From a virus: a stretch of DNA of 27,702 bases. The notes beneath the pieces were generated by a model that saw only the letters and a list, made by a program, of their open reading frames with translations, had not been told where the DNA came from and did not search any database. The stretch spans positions 1 through 27,702 of the IMG/VR virus record IMGVR_UViG_3300047557_001380. One strand, 5' to 3'. Each line of letters starts with the position of its first letter. Positions within the stretch are counted from its first letter, which is position 1. The position numbers and the translations under genes are program-made. Below, in pieces: positions 1,148 to 11,211 of this stretch.

Positions 1148-1876
1148 ATGACGCAGACAGCAACCGCTGGTGAACTGATCAATTCAGCTCTCAGGCTGAT
1201 AGGACAACTAGCGGAGGCGGAAGTCCCGTCTGCTGCTACGTCCCAAGACGCCCTCACCGCTCTCAACCAGATGATTGATTCGTGGAACACTGAGCGGCTG
1301 TCGGTGTTTTGTACCCAAGATCAGGTCTATACCTGGCCGGTCAACGAGATCAAACGAACCCTTGGGCCTAGCGGCGACATAAGTGTCAGCCCTCAGTTGC
1401 GACCCATCTTGGTTGATGACAGCACCTATTTCCGTGATCCGCAGACCAACGTGTCTTACGGCATCAAGATGATCAACCAGAGCCAGTACAACGGCATTGC
1501 GGTCAAGACGGTCACCTCGACCTACCCGCAGGTGATGTTCGTCAACATGACGTTCCCTGACATCGAGATGTACATCTACCCCAAGCCCACCCGGTCTTTG
1601 GAGTTCCATTTCATATCGGTTCAGCCGCTAACAGAGCCCACCGCATTAAACACCGTAATTGCCCTGCCTCCTGGCTATCTAAGGGCGTTGCGCTACAACC
1701 TTGCGATGGAGCTTGCCCCTGAGTTTGGTGTTGAGCCATCTCCGCAGGTGCAGCGTATCGCTATGACCAGCAAGCGCGATCTGAAGCGCATCAACAACCC
1801 AGACGACCTGATGACCCTGCCGTATGCCGTGGTTGCCAACCGTCAACGCTTCAACATCTATTCTGGGAACTACTGA
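1148..1876 (+). CDS. P22 gp4-like head-completion / tail adaptor protein
   Basis: A 242-residue protein resembling the P22 gp4 (packaged DNA stabilisation) family. It opens with TAGELINSALRLIGQLAEAE, then DALTALNQMIDSWNTERL, the usual helical N-terminus of this family. The C-terminus has ALPPGYLRALRYNLAMELAPE and then a helix. Family members bind below the portal ring after packaging and form the platform for the hub protein. The ribosome site (AGGGG) lies just before ATG 1148, and the stop overlaps the hub start by one base (TGATG). This gene order, gp4-like then gp10-like, is the one found in P22-type phages. Confidence 0.88.
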   Translation: MTQTATAGELINSALRLIGQLAEAEVPSAATSQDALTALNQMIDSWNTERLSVFCTQDQVYTWPVNEIKRTLGPSGDISVSPQLRPILVDDSTYFRDPQTNVSYGIKMINQSQYNGIAVKTVTSTYPQVMFVNMTFPDIEMYIYPKPTRSLEFHFISVQPLTEPTALNTVIALPPGYLRALRYNLAMELAPEFGVEPSPQVQRIAMTSKRDLKRINNPDDLMTLPYAVVANRQRFNIYSGNY

Positions 1877-4611
1877 TGAAGACGCCGATCCTTGGCAGTT
1901 CTTATGTCGCAAGGTCGGTCAATGCTGCCGACAACAAAATGGTCAACCTCTACCCGGAGGCTATCCCCGAGGGCGGCAAGGAAGCGGGTTACCTGAACCG
2001 TGCCCCTGGAAGCCGCTTGGTGACCTCCGTAGGCAACGGCCCTATCCGTGGGATGTGGTCGTTTGGCGGCTACCTGTACATTGCCTCTGGCACCCAACTG
2101 TACAAGCTGGATGAGAACCTGAACGGCTCTGTAATTGGCAGCATCACCGGCACTGGTCAGGTGTCGATGGCTGACAACGGCTATCAGTTGTTTATTGCCT
2201 GCAACCCTGACGGGTTCATATACAACGTCAGCACCAACGTGTTTGCCCAAATCACAGATGAAGACTTCCCAGGCTGTGTGCAAGTCACCTATATGTACGG
2301 CCTGTTCATCTTCAACGAACCCAACAGCCAGAAGTTTTGGATTACGGGTTACGACGGCACGCAGATTGATCCCCTGGAATTTGCCTTTGCTGAGATCAGT
2401 CCTGACCTGATCCAGTCGATCATTGCCAACCATACAGAGCTTTGGATATTCGGCTCCAACAGCATCGAGGTCTGGTACTACAGTGGCGATGTTGACTTCC
2501 CCTTTGCCCCTATTCAAGGCGCGTACAACGAGATTGGTTGTGCATCCGGGTTTTCGGTTGCCAAGCTCGACAACACCCTGTTTTGGTTGGGCCAAGATGC
2601 CCGTGGTAACGGGATCGTCTACCGGGCTGAGGGCTACAACGCTCGCAGGATCAGCACCCATGCCGTGGAATTTGCGATCCAGAGCTATCGCTACATCGAA
2701 GATGCGATTGCCTACACCTACCAGCAGGATGGCCACAGCTTCTATGTCCTGACGTTCCCGTCAGCAGACAAGACGTGGGTCTATGATGTGGCTACGGATG
2801 CCTGGCATGAACGGGCATCGTTCAGAAACGGTCAGTTCTACCGCCACCGCTCAAATTGCATGGCGAACTTTGAAAACCAAATCTTGGTCGGTGACTATCA
2901 AGACGGTCGGATTTACGCCCTTGATCTTGATTACTTCGCGGATGATGAGGAGAGGCAACGCTGGATACGCTCTTGGCGTGCGCTTCCAACGGGCTCCAAC
3001 AATCTTAACCGGACAGCGCATCATACACTTCAACTCGATCTGGAAACGGGTGGGCCTATCACTGCTCCGGCAGAGGAATACACCTATCTACGAGTAACAG
3101 TTAGTGACAACTGGGGAGGCACGCAAACCTCCATCAACAGCATAGCTGTTTACGACACCATCGGCGGCCCAAACATTGCCACAGGCGGCACACCGTTTGC
3201 CAGTAGCGGCAGTGCATCAGGCGTGTTTAGTGGCGGCGCTCCTTGGTTTGCCAACACATCATCAGGTGAATACGTTGGGTATCAATTTGCTGCTGGTGTT
3301 AAGCCGGTTCAGATCGCTATTGAAGGCGTTGGCACCGATGGCGTAAAGAACTTTGTAGTTCAGGTCAGCACTGACAACATCAACTATGTGCAGGTTGGTT
3401 CAGGACAAATTCCTTTTACCGCGAATGATGCGCCAAAAATAGGCGATCCAGATTTTGGCCTTCAAGATCAAGTAATTCCTCTTTCTGATAGATACGGCAC
3501 AGAAAGCGACGGCACATACATTTACAAAACTGTCATATCAACCCCTGCAAGCTGGAATGGAACAAACATTCCATATGTCACCACCAAGTATGACCTTGAT
3601 GGAAATGTTGTAGACACAGAAAGCGGGACATGGGCTGGTCAAGCTGCAAGCTTTACTATTGGAAACTCTAATTACGCCGGCATGATTTCAAACACCAAGG
3701 ATTACTGGTGGGCGTATGGATATTTTCTTGGCGGAACAGAGCGGTGTTTGGTTTTTTACAAAAACACATATTTGTTTGCTGTTGATCAAATTTACAACCC
3801 TGTTTATTCTTTTCAGTCTCCATCTTATTGGCCCAGCACATCTGTAAAAGTTGGAAACGCTTTTTACTGGGTAACCAAAGATTATTACAGGGTGTTCAAG
3901 TATGTTACCCCTGTTTCTCCAGGTATTGTTGCGCCTTCTGCTTATTATGTGCTTTCTACAACAGCATCAATTGCGTATGACGCTTTTAAAAACCACATAT
4001 GGGTTGTTGAGTTTGGAACTGGAAACACTATCAAGTTTGACGCTAACTTGAATTTGCTATCAACGCATCCAGGCGCTGTTGCTAGCGACGCATCAACAAA
4101 TTACCCAGCCCTGTGCATATACAACGGAATTGGCGCAATCATTGCGTCTCAAAGCGTTGGCTCATTGAACAACCGGTACTCCATCAGGGATTACACAATT
4201 GCTGATACGGTTGCTCCAACCGTCATAAGAAATGAAGTTGCAACGCCTCCAGTTTTTGGATATGCGCCATCTTCAGCCTCACTGGTAAATGGTTACGCTT
4301 ATTATGGCGAGGTGTTGATAGACCTTTTGGGTGTCGCCACTCCGCAAACCTTTAACCTTGTTCAGCCTTCCAACCCTGATTACGCAGACCCCAAGGTCAT
4401 GCTTCGATGGTCTGATGATGGCGGCCACACTTGGTCTAACTACCACGTTCGTTCGATGGGCAAGCTGGGCGAATACGGCAAGCGTGTGTTGTGGCGTCGC
4501 CTTGGCATGACCATGAAGCTCCGGGATCGCGTCTACGAAATTTCTGGCAACGATCCGGTCAAGATTGCCATTATGGGCGCAGAACTTGATGTATCCGGGA
4601 CTGACTCATGA
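1876..4611 (+). CDS. P22 gp10-like tail hub / DNA stabilisation protein with a large inserted segment
   Basis: A 911-residue protein. Residues 1-394 (from [20 protein letters not shown] to [11 protein letters not shown]) and about 826-911 ([38 protein letters not shown]) together look like a complete P22 gp10-type hub of about 480 residues, close to the usual length near 470. Between them lie about 430 extra residues (bases about 3058-4350). The first part of the insert (about 400-512) resembles a discoidin/F5-8C-like sugar-binding domain: [52 protein letters not shown]. The rest is rich in aromatic residues and strands. Much of the insert is visibly richer in A+T than its surroundings. The hub bridges the adaptor and the tail needle/fibre; the insert may add surface or glycan contact. 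Confidence 0.87.
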
Positions 4612-6035
4612 CAAGCAACGTCACTCGCATACCAGCATCTAGGGTGCCTCTCACTGAGGGGCAAAGCCCGATCATCTCAAGGGAGTGGTACAGGTTCTTC
4701 AACAACCTGTCCGTCCTGCTGGGCGGCGGCGAAAACGTACCGACAGTCCCGGAGCTGCAAGAAGAAATTAATGCCCTAGAAGCCCAGATTGCGCCTATAC
4801 AGGCCACGATTAATGACCTCGGCAGCATGGCCTTTCAGGAGAGCAACAACGTCGCCATCACAGGTGGTAATGCCACGTTGACCAACCTGACAACCACGGG
4901 CAACACGTTTCTTGGTGACGGCTCTCCAGACATCGTGACGATTGGTGCAGGCACCGGAGTCATCCAAAACAACTTCAACATCAACAGCGGTCTGATGTAT
5001 TTCAATGTGGGCAACAACCGCATCGGCATCAATGATAGCGCCCCATCAGAAGCTTTGGATGTCACCGGCAAGATTCGATCCTCTGCCGGGTTAATGGATG
5101 CCACGCTGACCTCTGGCCGGGTGGTCTATAGCACCACGGGTGGAGAGCTGATCGACAACGCCAACTTCACTTTCAACGGCACCACGGCAACGATCAATAC
5201 GCTGACCCTGACGGTGCCCTTGGACGAGACGGATGGCGGCACAGGCACTGACACCTACGCAACGGGTGACATCCTCTACGCTTCTGCCACCAACACGCTC
5301 AGCAAGCTCGCCAAGCCGTCTGCCAATGCGTTCTTGATCATGAATAGCTCTGGCGTGCCTTCTTGGAAGATCCCCGCTTATGGGGCTTTCTCAGACACAA
5401 CAACACAGAGCGCTAACTTAGCCGCCACCGCTTACCCGATGACTTTTGACACCGTGGACATTACGGACGGGGTTACTTGCGAAACAACTGCCGGGGTGGT
5501 GACCGCCAGCATTACCGGGACGACCCTGGACGTAACCGCCGTAACCTCTGGCGTCATCGACATAGGCCAGACCCTTACAGGCACGGGCGTTACAGCAGGC
5601 ACAAAGGTTGTGGCCTTTGGCACGGGTACGGGCGGCACAGGCACCTACACGGTGGACATCAGTCAGACCGTGGCAAGCACCACGATCAACGCCACCAAGT
5701 CCAGCCGGATCAAGGTGCCTTCTGCGGGCATCTACAACTTCCAGTTTTCGGCCCAGCTTGATAACACTTCTGGTGGCGCTCACCTTGTGTACATTTGGGC
5801 TAGGGTCAACGGCACCAACATAGCCAACTCAGCAGGCCAGGTACGTTTAAATGGCAACAATGATGAAATTGTAGCCTCCTGGAACTATCTGTTGAATCTG
5901 AACGCCAACGACTACTTTGAACTAATGTATGAAGTAGAAGATACCAGCGTAATAATCTTGGCTACTGGGGCTACATCACCCCACCCTGCCATTCCATCAG
6001 TCATACTTACCGTGAGTAACAACATAAGCGCATGA
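4608..6035 (+). CDS. Tail fibre / needle-like protein with a C1q-like C-terminal domain
   Basis: A 475-residue protein whose start overlaps the hub stop (ATGA). The N-terminus ([21 protein letters not shown]) is typical of phage fibre-associated proteins and is followed by a short coiled coil, about 47-72 ([20 protein letters not shown]). A repeat-rich shaft follows ([29 protein letters not shown]). The C-terminal domain, about 275-475, is jelly-roll-like ([41 protein letters not shown]), resembling C1q-like receptor-binding heads of phage fibres. A Gly/Thr-rich module at about 292-364 interrupts that head domain. The position directly after the hub fits a central needle or fibre. A receptor-binding role is an inference from the architecture. 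Confidence 0.78.
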
Positions 6036-6886
6036 ACGATCTGGTGACGGTGGGAACCAAGACCTTGATGGCTTACTCCTCTGCGGAGGAGGCTGAGATT
6101 GCGTGCCTGCCTTTGCCGCAGGCTGAGTGCCCGGTGGTTCATCACTTTGGCCCCGGCATCGCCATCAGGGAGGTGTTCATTCCTGCCGGTACGTTTGCCG
6201 TGGGCCACAAGCAGAAGTACGAACATCTCAACATCATGCTGACCGGGGAAATGCTATTGGTTCGGGATGGCGAGGTGCATCACTTGCGGGCTCCAATGCT
6301 GTTCACGGCCCCTCCCGGCAGGAAGGTTGCGTTTACCCTTGAGGACGTTACTTGGCAGAACATTTATGCCTGCGAACTCAAGGAAGGCTCTGCCGTTGAG
6401 GAAGTGTACATCGAGAAAAGTGAGGCATGGCAACAGGATGCGGCGGCAAGGTTCCACATGGAACAACTCAAGCGGGCCGTGGATGTTGAAGACTTCTTGA
6501 GATTTTTGGTGGATGCCGGGCTGGATTACAACGCTGTGGCGGCTTGGTTTTGCGATGACAACCAGCACACATGGTGGCCCAACGGGGTTACGCAGGTGTC
6601 TCCAAGCCCAATCCACGGGGAAGGCTTATTTTTGACCGCTAATATGGATGCAGGGGCTATGATATGCCCTGTGAAGGTTTCGGGCATGACGACCCAAGCA
6701 TGGAGGTATCTGAACCACTCCATGAATCCTAACTGTCATCTAGAACGCGATGGCAAGGGCGACATTATTTTGGTTACCAACAGGCCGCTGACAGGTTGCA
6801 AAGGCGGTCAACATGGTGAAGAACTCACAGTAAATTACAGAGATGCATGGCCCTTTCTTGGGCAGGAGGACGTATGTCAGGTTTAA
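6032..6886 (+). CDS. Cupin-SET domain fusion protein (putative lysine methyltransferase)
   Basis: A 284-residue protein; ATGA overlap with the previous stop. The cupin-like N-terminal half (about 35-130) contains [20 protein letters not shown] (H59, E64, H65), [13 protein letters not shown] and [12 protein letters not shown], as in small cupin proteins of many phages. The second cupin histidine motif is not clear, so metal binding is uncertain. The C-terminal half (about 190-270) carries SET-domain signatures in order: HGEGLF (195-200), [10 protein letters not shown] (225-234) and GEELTVNY (262-269). These correspond to the GxG, NHSxxPN and GEELTxxY motifs that bind S-adenosylmethionine and form the pseudoknot of protein lysine methyltransferases. 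Cys256 and the GG preceding GEE make a small loop. The substrate is unknown; candidates are a virion protein or a host protein. It lies in the tail block, not with replication genes. Confidence 0.85.
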
Positions 6887-7638
6887 CTGCGGCAGTAATT
6901 GTTGGTGGCAGCAGCCTTGCTAGCGGTTACATGGGAGCCCAGGCTTCCAAAGAAGCCGCCCGAGAACAACGCAGAGCAGCCCAGCAGCAGCTTGAGCTTC
7001 AGCGCCAGATGTACAACCAGCAGCGGGCTGACTTTGAGCCTTTCAGGGCGGCAGGCTCTCAAGCACAGAACGCTTTGATGCTTGGCCTTGGCTTGGGTGG
7101 CACTCCTGCTCAGGAAGGCTATGGTGCCCTTATGCGGGACTTTTCCATGGCTGACTATGAGGCTGACCCCGGTTACCAGTTCCGCCTACAGGAAGGGCTG
7201 AAAGCCCTTGATCGTCAGGCTGCTGCAAGGGGTGGCACCTTGTCTGGTTCCGCCCTCAAAGGGACACAACGCTATGCTCAGGATGTCGCGTCTCAGGAAT
7301 ATTCCAACGCTTTTAACCGATATATGGCAAATCGGGCGTCTAAGCTGGGGGCTCTTGGTGGCCTTGTTAGCACTGGTGCCGGTGCTGCTCAGGGGCTTGC
7401 CGGTGCTGCTGGTCAGTTTGGCCAACTTGGCGGCCAGACGCTGGCTGACATAGGTAATGCTCGCGCTTCGGGAATCATGGGGCCTGCCAACGCATACGCC
7501 GGGGCTCTTGGCGGAATAAGTAACGCTGCTATGGGCTACGGAATGATGAATGCTCTTGGTGGAACTGGCGGCAGAACTTCAAGCTATGAGCCAATGTATC
7601 AATCTCAGGCATCCAACAGATTTTCAATATTTGACTGA
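6874..7638 (+). CDS. DNA ejection / transfer protein (P22 gp7-like role)
   Basis: A 254-residue protein. I chose ATG 6874 over the in-frame ATG 6847 because AGGAGG lies just before it; this leaves a 13-nt overlap with the cupin-SET gene. The N-terminus has a small hydrophobic Ala/Gly stretch (3-22) then a coiled coil (ASKEAAREQRRAAQQQLEL). The middle contains DPGYQFRLQEGLKALDRQAA and GTLSGSALKGTQRYAQDVAS, hallmarks of phage proteins annotated as DNA transfer or ejection proteins. The tail is Gly/Ala rich. Such proteins are packed in the capsid and leave with the DNA to make a channel through the envelope. It is the first of three consecutive ejection-type genes. Confidence 0.82.
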   Translation: MSGLTAAVIVGGSSLASGYMGAQASKEAAREQRRAAQQQLELQRQMYNQQRADFEPFRAAGSQAQNALMLGLGLGGTPAQEGYGALMRDFSMADYEADPGYQFRLQEGLKALDRQAAARGGTLSGSALKGTQRYAQDVASQEYSNAFNRYMANRASKLGALGGLVSTGAGAAQGLAGAAGQFGQLGGQTLADIGNARASGIMGPANAYAGALGGISNAAMGYGMMNALGGTGGRTSSYEPMYQSQASNRFSIFD

Positions 7639-7654
7639 CGTTTAAGGTGACATC

Positions 7655-9226
7655 ATGGCTATCAACCCAAACATCGCCTTGAGCTTTCAAGCGCCAAAGT
7701 TTGATGATCCGCTCAACAAGCTCGCGCAAATGGAGCAGATCAAGGCGTACCGTCAGAACGCTTTGGCAAAGCAGATGGAAATGGATGCTGCTGTCAGAGA
7801 GCGCGAGATGACCAATGCGCTTCGTCAGCGACTAGCATCTGGCAAAGACCTTGGCCTTTCAGAAGCCGCCATGTTTGGCGCGCCAGGTATGGAGGTCTAC
7901 GGGGCGATGGCAGGCGCTAAAGCCAGCGACGCCACCAGGCAAGCCAAAGAACTGGAAATTGCCAGCAATCTTTACAAAAACGTTTATTTGTCAAAAGTAC
8001 CCTCGGTAAGAACCGCCGAAGACGCAAAAAACTGGGCGGCTTCAATCCAAAACGACCCTAGATTGAGCCCTATTACGTCCCAAGTAAGTCCAGAGCAAGC
8101 TATGGCCGGGCTTCCCAAGACAGACGCTGATGTTGCGGCATGGCAAGAACAATTACTGGTTCCGTTTGAGGACAGGTTCAGTGCCGAAAATGCGGCAGAG
8201 CTGGCACGAGAATCTCAAGCTGCTGCGATGGAAAGAGCACAACTTGGGGTGGCCGCAAGTGCAATTCAAGGTGGGCTGAATAGAGCAGCTACGGCGTCCA
8301 ATAGACAGCAATCTGATCGCTTAACGATAGCTCAGAAAATTATGCAAAATGCCTACAACATTGACAGTGTAACCGGCAATTACGTTAGAAACCCTGAAGT
8401 TTCTGATGAAATGTTGCGAGACGCTGTCAACGTTGTAAAAGGAGCAATTCCTCAAGTGCCGGATAGCACACTGGAGCAACCAGTTGATGCTGCCGCTAGT
8501 GGAGTTCCCGCTGGACGCACTCCTCCCCCTCCAGGTGCTCCTTCAATGACTGCAGCACCTGGAACGCTGCTTCCGGGACAAGTCTCGGGATCAAGAGCGC
8601 AAGCTGCCGAGGACAAAGAAATAACTAAACTTGAAGCTAAAATGAAGATCGAACAGCCTGAAATTGAAAAGGGCATTTTGTTAAGCGACCCTGTAACACT
8701 TAACGCAATTAACGAAATTGATAATATTTTTAATCACCCTGATCTTAAAGACGTTACCGGCAACCTTGAAGGATGGGCTAAAACGTTTAAGGGATTGATC
8801 GATCAAGGGGATTCCGACGTTAATGCAATAGTTAAATCTTTGAAGTCAAAAGCATGGCTTGGAAGCATACAGTCCTTTGGTAAAGGTAGCGGATTAACCC
8901 CAATCACTGACGCTGAAGGAGACAAACTAGAAGCCGCATACGCGCTATTAGACCAAACGATGGGGACACCTGCGTTTCAGAAAAATCTATTGGCATTTAG
9001 AGATCAACTGGAAGCGTCTCGCCGGGTTATCTACAACGCTTACAACGACAAGTACGGAAAACTCAACATAAAAGGCTGGCGGCCTTTGTCTGCCGTGTAC
9101 CAAGGCGCAGTACCACAAAAAGCAATTGACGCCCTGCTTGAAAACCCGTCGGAAAGGCGAATCAGACTTTTTGATAGAGCATTTGGCGAAGATGTCAGGG
9201 AATATTTACTCAAGGGTGCAAAATAA
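7655..9226 (+). CDS. Probable ejection (internal virion) protein
   Basis: A 523-residue protein, largely helical and charged, with an AAGGTGA ribosome site before ATG 7655. The N-terminal third is coiled-coil-like (LNKLAQMEQIKAYRQNALAK). A Pro-rich linker (AGRTPPPPGAPS at about 288-300) separates it from a helical C-terminal region (DPVTLNAINEIDNIFNHP, GTPAFQKNLLAFRDQLEASR). It has no signal peptide. Its place between two other ejection-type genes and its length fit the middle member of the three P22-type ejection proteins. Sequence identity to a named family is not clear to me. The stop overlaps the next start (TAATG), so translation is probably coupled. Confidence 0.7.
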   Translation: MAINPNIALSFQAPKFDDPLNKLAQMEQIKAYRQNALAKQMEMDAAVREREMTNALRQRLASGKDLGLSEAAMFGAPGMEVYGAMAGAKASDATRQAKELEIASNLYKNVYLSKVPSVRTAEDAKNWAASIQNDPRLSPITSQVSPEQAMAGLPKTDADVAAWQEQLLVPFEDRFSAENAAELARESQAAAMERAQLGVAASAIQGGLNRAATASNRQQSDRLTIAQKIMQNAYNIDSVTGNYVRNPEVSDEMLRDAVNVVKGAIPQVPDSTLEQPVDAAASGVPAGRTPPPPGAPSMTAAPGTLLPGQVSGSRAQAAEDKEITKLEAKMKIEQPEIEKGILLSDPVTLNAINEIDNIFNHPDLKDVTGNLEGWAKTFKGLIDQGDSDVNAIVKSLKSKAWLGSIQSFGKGSGLTPITDAEGDKLEAAYALLDQTMGTPAFQKNLLAFRDQLEASRRVIYNAYNDKYGKLNIKGWRPLSAVYQGAVPQKAIDALLENPSERRIRLFDRAFGEDVREYLLKGAK

Positions 9227-11211
9227 TGGCTGAAGACAACCCTTTTGCGGAATACACAAAGCCTCTGCGCCAAAGGCCGATGCTTCCTACGGAACAGAAA
9301 GCGTCGGGAACAGGCTTGTCTGCGGCCGATTTAGAAGACAACCCTTTTGCAGAATACACAAAGCCTCTGCGTCAGAGGCCAAGTGAAACAACAAAACCAC
9401 CCAAGCGATCCTATAAGTGGTCCGAGGTGCCTGGCGAAGCCCTCATGAACTTGGGGCCAAGTGCCGCTCAATTTTATGGCGACATATTTGAGGCAGTCAC
9501 ATCTCCAGTCGAGACGGCGACGGGCATCAAGAACCTGGCAGTCGACCTGACCAACTACGCTCGAGCTGACAGCCTGATGAAACAGGGTCGGACAGCGGAA
9601 GTTGAGCAAGCCAATCGGACCGTGAACTATTTAGCGCAAGCGTTCAAAGATAGATACGGCGGCGAAGAACAAATCAAACGTACAATTGCGGAAAAGCCAT
9701 TTGAAGTCTTTGTCGACATCAGCCCGTTGTTTACTGGCGGTGCAGGACTAGTAGCCAGGGCTGGTGGTCCGGCCAAAGTAGCGAATGCGCTCAAAACTGC
9801 AGGTGAGCTGCCAATGCTTCCTGTTTCGGCCGCCTTGGGAGTGGGCGGCAGAGCTCTGTCGAAACTGGGCCAGTACACAGCAGATGTCGCCGATCCCAAA
9901 TCAGCGGCTCTCTTGGAAGCAGCAGAAGGCCGGGGCGAGCAGATCTTGAATGCTCTGCAGGCTCCCACGCAATATGTGACTGGCAGCATGCCTACGGCGG
10001 CTCAAGCCGCAGTCCCTGCAGGGTCAACCAAGTTCGTGGCGTTCGCTGAGTCTGGTAAACGGGTACTTCCTACAGAGTACAATCAAAGAGCTGTCCAACA
10101 AGCGCAAGCGGCAAAAGAAGCGGTGCGTACAGTATCGGGCCAACCTGGGGAACTCGAGGGGTTAGAAGCCGCTCGCAAAGCACAAGCTGATGTAAATTAC
10201 CCCGCAGCGTTTCAGCAACAGATCCGTTCAAATCCTGAACTGGTAGCACTCCGCGAAGATCCTTACCTGGCTCCTGCGTTTGAACAGGCCGACAAACTGT
10301 TTACATCAATAGCAGGTTCTGAAGAAGCCGCGAAAACGCTGAAGAAAAGCGATCTGATAAAATACTTGCACAACGTCAAAGTATCTCTTGACCCTATGAT
10401 CTCCGCTGAAACAAATAAAGCGGCTCAATCGCAGATGCTCGCTAAGCGCGATCAGCTTTTAAATTGGTTGGAAACAAGATCTTCAGGGTATCAGAAAGCA
10501 CGCGAAGAATTTGCCGAAGCCAGTGGCCCTATCGATAAGATGAGAGTCGGCAAATACCTTGAGGACAAATTGCTTCCTGCGATCTACGAGGGTGAGGATG
10601 CTGCTGAAGCTATACGGACCGCAGACCTTCGAGTTAAAGAGTTTTCCAATGCTCTGAAAAATGCGCCAACGACTCTTAAAAAGTCCACGGGCTTCCAGCG
10701 TTATCAAAAGCTCACTGACGTTTTGACTGACGACCAAGTGAAGACTCTTGAAGGCGTTCGAGATGATATGGCTCGGGATCTTGTTTCAAGACACATGGCA
10801 GCTGTTGGTCGAGCAGGTGGCGCACCCGATTTGAGGACTTTTGTCAAAGATGTCACTGAAGAGCTCCGCGGTCCTCCTCTTGTGAAAATGAGCGTCACCG
10901 TGGTCAACGACATCCTTCGCCGGGTCAAAGGGCAGATGAGCGAAAAGATGGCAGTCGACTTGGCCACCGCTATGCTTAACCCCGAAACGGCAGCGGAAGC
11001 GTTGCAACGGGCCATGCGTCGTGAGCAAAAGCTCAAGAACCTGGTAGCGCCCCTCCAGAAGACCGGGAAAGCCGTTCAAACCGCGGTAAGGAAAACTCCA
11101 GCACCGTTGGCGAATTTGCTGGCACCGCCTGGCGAAGAGACATTGAACGAGATGAGAAAACAATGGCTACGAGAAGAACCTCTCATAACTGTTCGCAAAG
11201 GCGCGAAGTGA
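9226..11211 (+). CDS. Large ejection / internal virion protein with an N-terminal duplication
   Basis: A 661-residue protein. It begins with two copies of a 16-residue unit (EDNPFAEYTKPLRQRP) at 3-18 and 37-52. Next comes a segment typical of phage ejection proteins, EVPGEALMNLGPSAAQFYGD, then ETATGIKNLAVDLTNYA. The rest is long-helical, with Ala/Lys/Glu-rich stretches to the C-terminus (GEETLNEMRKQWLREEPL). NPF-E-Y-like N-terminal repeats are seen in other internal virion proteins, where they may serve packaging into the procapsid; that role is not shown here. It is the last of the three-gene ejection set and precedes the second tail-fibre gene. Confidence 0.75.
   Translation: MAEDNPFAEYTKPLRQRPMLPTEQKASGTGLSAADLEDNPFAEYTKPLRQRPSETTKPPKRSYKWSEVPGEALMNLGPSAAQFYGDIFEAVTSPVETATGIKNLAVDLTNYARADSLMKQGRTAEVEQANRTVNYLAQAFKDRYGGEEQIKRTIAEKPFEVFVDISPLFTGGAGLVARAGGPAKVANALKTAGELPMLPVSAALGVGGRALSKLGQYTADVADPKSAALLEAAEGRGEQILNALQAPTQYVTGSMPTAAQAAVPAGSTKFVAFAESGKRVLPTEYNQRAVQQAQAAKEAVRTVSGQPGELEGLEAARKAQADVNYPAAFQQQIRSNPELVALREDPYLAPAFEQADKLFTSIAGSEEAAKTLKKSDLIKYLHNVKVSLDPMISAETNKAAQSQMLAKRDQLLNWLETRSSGYQKAREEFAEASGPIDKMRVGKYLEDKLLPAIYEGEDAAEAIRTADLRVKEFSNALKNAPTTLKKSTGFQRYQKLTDVLTDDQVKTLEGVRDDMARDLVSRHMAAVGRAGGAPDLRTFVKDVTEELRGPPLVKMSVTVVNDILRRVKGQMSEKMAVDLATAMLNPETAAEALQRAMRREQKLKNLVAPLQKTGKAVQTAVRKTPAPLANLLAPPGEETLNEMRKQWLREEPLITVRKGAK
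9232..9381. repeat. In-frame direct repeat within the large ejection gene
   Basis: Bases 9232-9279 and 9334-9381 encode the same 16 residues. The two DNA copies differ at only about three positions, all silent (gcggaa/gcagaa, cgccaa/cgtcag). The offset is 102 bp. Such closeness suggests recent duplication or continuing gene conversion. Confidence 0.85.

Follow-up and report, generated by a model that had tools for sequence, protein, structure and literature searches.

A Phage Cupin–SET Fusion Encoded Directly before the Ejection Genes, a Candidate Lysine Methyltransferase of Virion Assembly

Introduction

The stretch of short-tailed phage DNA analyzed here (27,702 nucleotides, hereafter the window) encodes a protein of 284 residues in which a cupin-fold half is joined to a SET half, and its gene lies directly before the genes for the ejection proteins. 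The fusion represents a widespread phage family, PHROG 34170, to which no function has been assigned. The favored reading, with an estimated probability of roughly 0.42, is that the protein is a late, assembly-stage SAM-dependent lysine methyltransferase that acts on ejection proteins. The parts of this reading differ in strength: the SET identity of the C-terminal half is strongly supported, the protein is probably an active enzyme, and the assignment of the ejection proteins as its substrate is tentative.

The SET fold is that of histone methyltransferases, and the domain is best known from chromatin. Ejection proteins must be kept in the capsid, travel down a narrow tail and, once refolded, form a channel through the envelope; to our knowledge, what prepares them for delivery is not settled.

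The Fusion Gene and Its Domains

An initial annotation of the window proposed a cupin–SET fusion at 6032–6886. The open reading frame occupies exactly this interval and contains every motif that was quoted for it. It overlaps with both neighbors, its start with the stop of the preceding frame (4608–6035) and its end with the start of the following one (6847–7638). The features of the gene are as follows:

6032–6886, + strand: cupin–SET fusion gene, 284 aa, ATG start; PHROG 34170 match; AlphaFold2 mean pLDDT 89
6095–6415, + strand: cupin-fold (RmlC-like) domain, residues ~22–128; VIA-align Z ~9; matches to phrog_12032 and phrog_24280
6416–6574, + strand: helical linker, residues 129–181; DSSP helices 131–147, 149–161 and 166–173; D151 and D154 invariant
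6575–6862, + strand: SET domain without SET-I insert, residues ~182–277; Pfam PF00856 and VIA-align fold matches
6617–6625, + strand: SET motif GxG (G196, G198); 65/65 and 27/27 clusters
6713–6733, + strand: SET motif NHSxxPN (N228–N234); N228, H229 and N234 in 27/27 clusters
6815–6838, + strand: SET motif GEExTxxY (G262–Y269); E264 and Y269 in 65/65 clusters

The PHROG 34170 profile covers residues 3–282 of the 284 (E = 8e-65). The SET motifs of the protein read HGEGLF (195–200), a ten-residue stretch at 225–234 that includes NHSxxPN, and GEELTVNY (262–269). Pfam SET (PF00856) matches with 27.6 bits (E = 4.2e-6), above its curated cut-off of 22.4. A phmmer search of the PDB retrieved MLL1 at 6e-6, and a profile built from the SET half of the family retrieved MLL1 at 1.1e-9 and the viral protein vSET at 5e-5. 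Since the Pfam, PHROG 34170 and MLL1 profile matches coincide with a model that folds as SET, the motifs are far beyond what chance would produce. For the N-terminal half, Pfam Cupin_2 scored 16.5 bits, under its cut-off of 27.2. The same half matches phrog_12032 (E = 1.7e-21), whose name 'short tail fiber' is taken from annotation only, and phrog_24280 (tail fiber adhesin).

Predicted Structure and Absence of the SET-I Insert

An AlphaFold2 model was built on an alignment of 30 homologues and reached a mean pLDDT of 89 and a pTM of 0.77. VIA-align matched its SET part (residues ~174–278) to EZH2 (4mi0; Z 10.0, 83 aligned residues, 1.9 Å), MLL1 (7u5v; Z 9.7) and vSET (3kma; Z 8.8), so that residues 190–270, on which the SET reading of the initial annotation depended, do match SET folds. 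The cupin part matched known cupins with Z up to 9.3 over residues ~29–121 (31–115 at Z 9.3; an RmlC-like double-stranded beta-helix), and the best PDB matches in a Foldseek search were cupins. The cupin half is thus borne out by the predicted fold, but not by Pfam Cupin_2.

The first cupin metal motif is GHxQxxxH (H59, Q/H61, H65), while the second is without its histidine and is indeed incomplete, as first described. JmjC demethylases are cupin-fold enzymes, and it had been suggested that the cupin might demethylate. A catalytic cupin of this kind, opposing the SET half, would fit the conservation of H59 and H65, but the HxD/E...H triad is absent and the second metal motif is degenerate. The demethylase role was rejected on these motif grounds, and an enzymatic cupin half is now very improbable.

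Two results go beyond the initial annotation: the identity of the slot with that of P22 gene 14 (see below) and the absence of the SET-I insert. At the place of SET-I the family has seven profile positions against 41 residues in MLL1, which makes it 34 shorter. In known SET enzymes this insert contributes to the substrate channel, so without it the domain may lack activity or use an atypical site. For the same reason, the protein is not classed as a canonical histone SET methyltransferase of the MLL/EZH2 type; the length of SET-I varies within the SET family and was not treated as a defining feature. A conserved GCxGG loop (window 6794–6817) precedes the GEExTxxY motif, and MLL1 has no such loop. 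The loop might compensate for the absent insert.

Conservation of the Two Halves

Neither 34 non-redundant full-length homologues nor 65 clusters (80% identity) show any change at G196, G198, E264 or Y269; at N228 and H229, variation is confined to one masked row. Because some of these loci had been fetched with SET patterns, the count was repeated on loci retrieved with cupin patterns only. Here G196, G198, N228, H229, N234, G262, E264, T266 and Y269 were each present in 27 of 27 clusters, and position 230 was serine in 22 clusters and alanine in five. The NHxxPN and GEExTxxY motifs are therefore conserved in homologues, as expected from the SET reading. Across the divergent clusters (65 and 27), no residues of the SET half are better conserved than those at SAM-binding and catalytic positions, a pattern that, taken with the Pfam score and the modeled fold, upholds this half as a genuine SET domain. 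The median dN/dS over 491 pairs was 0.028 for the cupin and 0.071 for the SET half, and both halves are under purifying selection. The linker residues D151 and D154 are invariant in the homologue alignment.

These data bear on the alternative that the fusion is a cupin-based virion or assembly protein in which the SET half has a structural role and no catalytic activity. The missing SET-I insert is compatible with this, as are the annotation of the cupin families as short tail fibre or tail adhesin and the many phages in which the cupin alone suffices. Loss of the SAM-binding and catalytic-position residues would be expected in an inactive module, and it is these that are conserved most; a dead SET half is accordingly unlikely.

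The Gene Slot before the Ejection Genes

The neighbors of the fusion gene in the window are as follows:

1148–1876, + strand: head-tail adaptor Ad3 (P22 gp4 position); phrog_637, E = 3e-10
1876–4611, + strand: head closure Hc3 (P22 gp10 type) with a long C-terminal extension; phrog_578, E = 2e-125, residues 3–428
4608–6035, + strand: tail-fibre-like protein; phrog_38233, E = 1.6e-18
6847–7638, + strand: ejection protein (P22 gp7 type); phrog_598, E = 5e-40
7655–9226, + strand: ejection protein (P22 gp20 type); phrog_2534, E = 4e-10
9226–11211, + strand: gene in gp16 position, 661 aa, placed by position only, with no PHROG match

The place among tail and ejection genes that was first assigned to the fusion is confirmed by this context, with a fibre-like gene upstream and gp7 and gp20-like genes downstream. 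The order of the window (Ad3, Hc3, fibre-like, cupin–SET, gp7, gp20-like, gp16 position) is that of P22 genes 4-10-26-14-7-20-16. The head-closure protein is 911 residues long, and its extension beyond residues 3–428 has a weak match near the C-terminus.

Among distinct fusion frames with enough downstream DNA, 110 of 118 are followed within 400 bp by the start of a gp7-like frame. In the phages P26218 and PH1 the fusion gene is directly upstream of an ejection gene. The slot is occupied by a cupin-only gene in VvAW1, BA3, X14, 234P9 and Nahant phage 1.067.O. A cupin alone is also flanked by the tail tubular gene and the gene of the first internal virion protein in the T7-like Sphaerotilus phage R1 (L241:3396–3827) and in Variovorax phage VAC_51 (L245:3420–3929), a position equal to that of T7 gene 13. 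One exception was found in Alteromonas H4/4, where the cupin adjoins an RNA polymerase gene. In gp7, no lysine specific to SET-bearing phages was found; the lysine of the SGxxxK segment does not discriminate, because the cupin-only phages VvAW1 and BA3 also have it.

In P22 the slot between the needle and gp7 holds gene 14 (L149:8911–9366), a DUF2824 protein (phrog_651, 'head morphogenesis'). Homology of the cupin–SET protein to gp14 was considered and rejected, as hhalign gave no match; the two are linked by position only. A model of DUF2824 was made from the Sodalis phage phiSG1 member (L337:1501–1968) and 20 relatives, including P22-identical sequences (pLDDT 88, pTM 0.83). It has the fold of a GNAT acetyltransferase (Z 16.1, 141 aligned residues, 2.7 Å; Foldseek 5e-9). 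The P22 branch is only ~24% identical to the modeled protein. R74-G75 is invariant in the DUF2824 alignment, but a deletion falls at this place in the P22 branch. On the basis of this model, P22 gene 14 and its family are predicted to have a GNAT fold, with acetyltransferase activity as a candidate function only. Each of the 160 DUF2824 loci has a gp7-like frame close by, and cupin and SET genes are absent from all of them; conversely, the DUF2824 profile has no match in the cupin/SET loci. As the flanks extend 1.5 kb, this mutual exclusion applies to the slot and not to whole genomes. In sequence searches of the PDB, neither the gp14 nor the T7 gp13 family obtained a convincing match, the GNAT hint for gp13 being non-significant (E = 0.39). 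A GenBank note on a relative describes gp13 as required for the incorporation of gp6.7 into the virion.

Architecture in Relatives and on Integrative Elements

It was asked in the initial annotation whether the two domains are always fused and always lie between fibre and ejection genes. In phages they are fused in nearly every case and stand nearly always immediately before gp7; the exceptions are loci with the cupin or the SET domain alone, or with the two as separate genes. All 80 viral loci from a SET scan are cupin–SET fusions, a set that consists of the best 80 of 588 and in which near relatives are therefore over-represented. The fetched loci together comprise 208 fusions, 20 cupin-only loci, 10 SET-only loci and three rows with separate genes; these counts include contigs that were fetched repeatedly, several cupin-only cases are cut by contig ends, and the three separate-gene rows are one locus seen three times. 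The cupin tree, from a short alignment with a weak root, calls for two or more transitions between the fused and the unfused state, with the fusions of PH1 (L054) and L143 clustering with the cupin-only genes of VvAW1 and BA3. In Paraburkholderia ferrariae (L145:5090–6537) the cupin and SET are two genes with a 4-base overlap, on an integrative element beside a tmRNA gene. That they are kept together here as overlapping genes was counted in favor of the methyltransferase reading.

The near-permanent fusion in phages, and the adjacency of the halves where they are split, would also suit a SET half that methylates its own protein or its cupin partner as an assembly switch. Lys98 and Lys129 are conserved in the homologue alignment, but nothing links either of them to methylation, and SET-only elements exist. 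Self-methylation is considered improbable.

Few bacterial genomes contain the SET module (2/369, including the query genome itself), which is found partly on small elements. The clearest case is a Rhodocyclales genome (G005:C3:255118–264728, L166), in which 50-bp direct repeats at a tRNA-Met gene delimit an element of 9,561 bp. An integrase, a primase/helicase, an SSB and a free-standing SET protein are encoded in it, and none of its genes was recognized as a capsid gene. The element of Paraburkholderia FW106_bin.8 has an integrase, replication genes and a cupin–SET gene next to a gp7-like gene (phrog_598, 1e-28), again with no recognized capsid genes. At least one SET-only element has no recognizable ejection gene.

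Besides the Rhodocyclales element, three small elements in all combine integrase and replication genes with cupin–SET or SET:

L141: G001:C12, ~358–367 kb
L142: G002:C45, ~14.4–27 kb
L145: G004:C83, ~101–114 kb

One of the three has a gp7-like gene, and two seem to encode small proteins that look like small terminase subunits (judged by eye only). No direct repeats of at least 14 bp beside a tRNA or tmRNA gene were found in them. By their gene content, the SET-bearing elements look like phage satellites. A paper on helper–satellite systems (PMC4936722) makes no mention of SET, cupin or ejection genes.

The elements bear on a further alternative, in which an active SET methyltransferase, either expressed late or packaged in the particle and delivered together with gp7, gp20 and gp16, modifies a host protein for takeover or counter-defence. 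The intact SET motifs agree with it, and the retention of SET on mobile elements with no recognized capsid genes, one of them without a recognized ejection gene, fits a role in the cell. In nearly all phages, though, the gene stands in the late virion block and not with early genes, and no defence-linked context was seen. A host target is considered unlikely, about as much so as a dead SET half.

Proposed Role and Significance

For the favored reading, methylation of ejection proteins, the following course may be envisaged. From its position, the fusion gene would be expressed late in infection, at the same time as its tail and ejection neighbors. The cupin barrel, probably the older, structural half, resides in a conserved accessory slot just before the ejection cassette and would most likely dock on ejection proteins or help to load them at assembly. 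The SET half would then methylate lysines of ejection proteins of the gp7, gp20 and gp16 types, and such methylation may tune their packing, their ejection or their refolding into the DNA channel. In its favor stand the SET score and fold, the invariant motifs, the low dN/dS, the gp7-like gene that follows most fusions, the cupin-only relatives in the slot of both P22-like and T7-like phages, the GNAT fold of the P22 slot protein with its exclusion of cupin/SET, the GenBank note on gp13 and gp6.7, and the two elements in which cupin and SET overlap as separate genes or adjoin gp7. Counted against this reading are the missing SET-I insert, the lack of a SET-specific lysine in gp7 and the SET-only element without an ejection gene.

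Given the GNAT-fold protein at the corresponding place in P22, the slot may be used for group-transfer enzymes that can replace one another. As the fusion sits before the genes of injected proteins where P22 has an acetyltransferase-like protein, these phages may modify their own injection machinery. The wider notion that short-tailed phages keep a dedicated pre-ejection slot for interchangeable protein-modifying enzymes (GNAT in P22, SET here), which tune the DNA-injected proteins post-translationally, is rather doubtful at present. If it is true, a phage DNA-injection machine would have a histone-type modification system.

If a neighboring SET or GNAT enzyme modifies the ejection proteins, this preparation step can be tested in the cultivated phages P26218, PH1 and P22, and phage SET proteins, which form a widespread family, would gain a clear role. 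Already known are SET-annotated phage proteins, as the initial annotation stated, and the protein family itself, catalogued as PHROG 34170 without a function, which agrees with the statement that no function is established for such a fusion. New here are the fixed slot of the cupin–SET gene, its correspondence to the place of gene 14 in P22, the GNAT fold of DUF2824 and the integrative elements. In the literature searched, which covered few subscription journals, no paper on phage cupin–SET proteins was found, nor any description of this correspondence with P22, of the DUF2824 GNAT fold or of SET-bearing integrative elements.

Comparison with Known Systems

The closest counterparts are the PHROG 34170 members Rhodoferax phage P26218 gp30 (YP_009222580.1) and Pseudoalteromonas phage PH1 gp49, which have the same full-length cupin–SET architecture and the same downstream neighbor; they are annotated as hypothetical or as 'similar to putative tail fiber protein'. 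The phage cupin families phrog_12032 and phrog_24280 (VvAW1, BA3, Shewanella X14) share the cupin half and the slot but have no SET domain. MLL1, EZH2 and PBCV-1 vSET share the fold and the GxG, NHxxPN and ExTxxY motifs with the window protein, which differs from them in having no SET-I, in its GCxGG loop, in its fusion to a cupin and in being phage-encoded within a virion gene block. T7 gp13 (PF11090, probable scaffold protein) occupies the same slot, between tail tubular protein B and the internal virion protein gp14, but is unrelated in sequence. The P22 gene 14 protein likewise occupies the slot and has a predicted group-transfer fold; this fold is GNAT, however, and both its sequence and its chemistry are unrelated to those of the cupin–SET protein.
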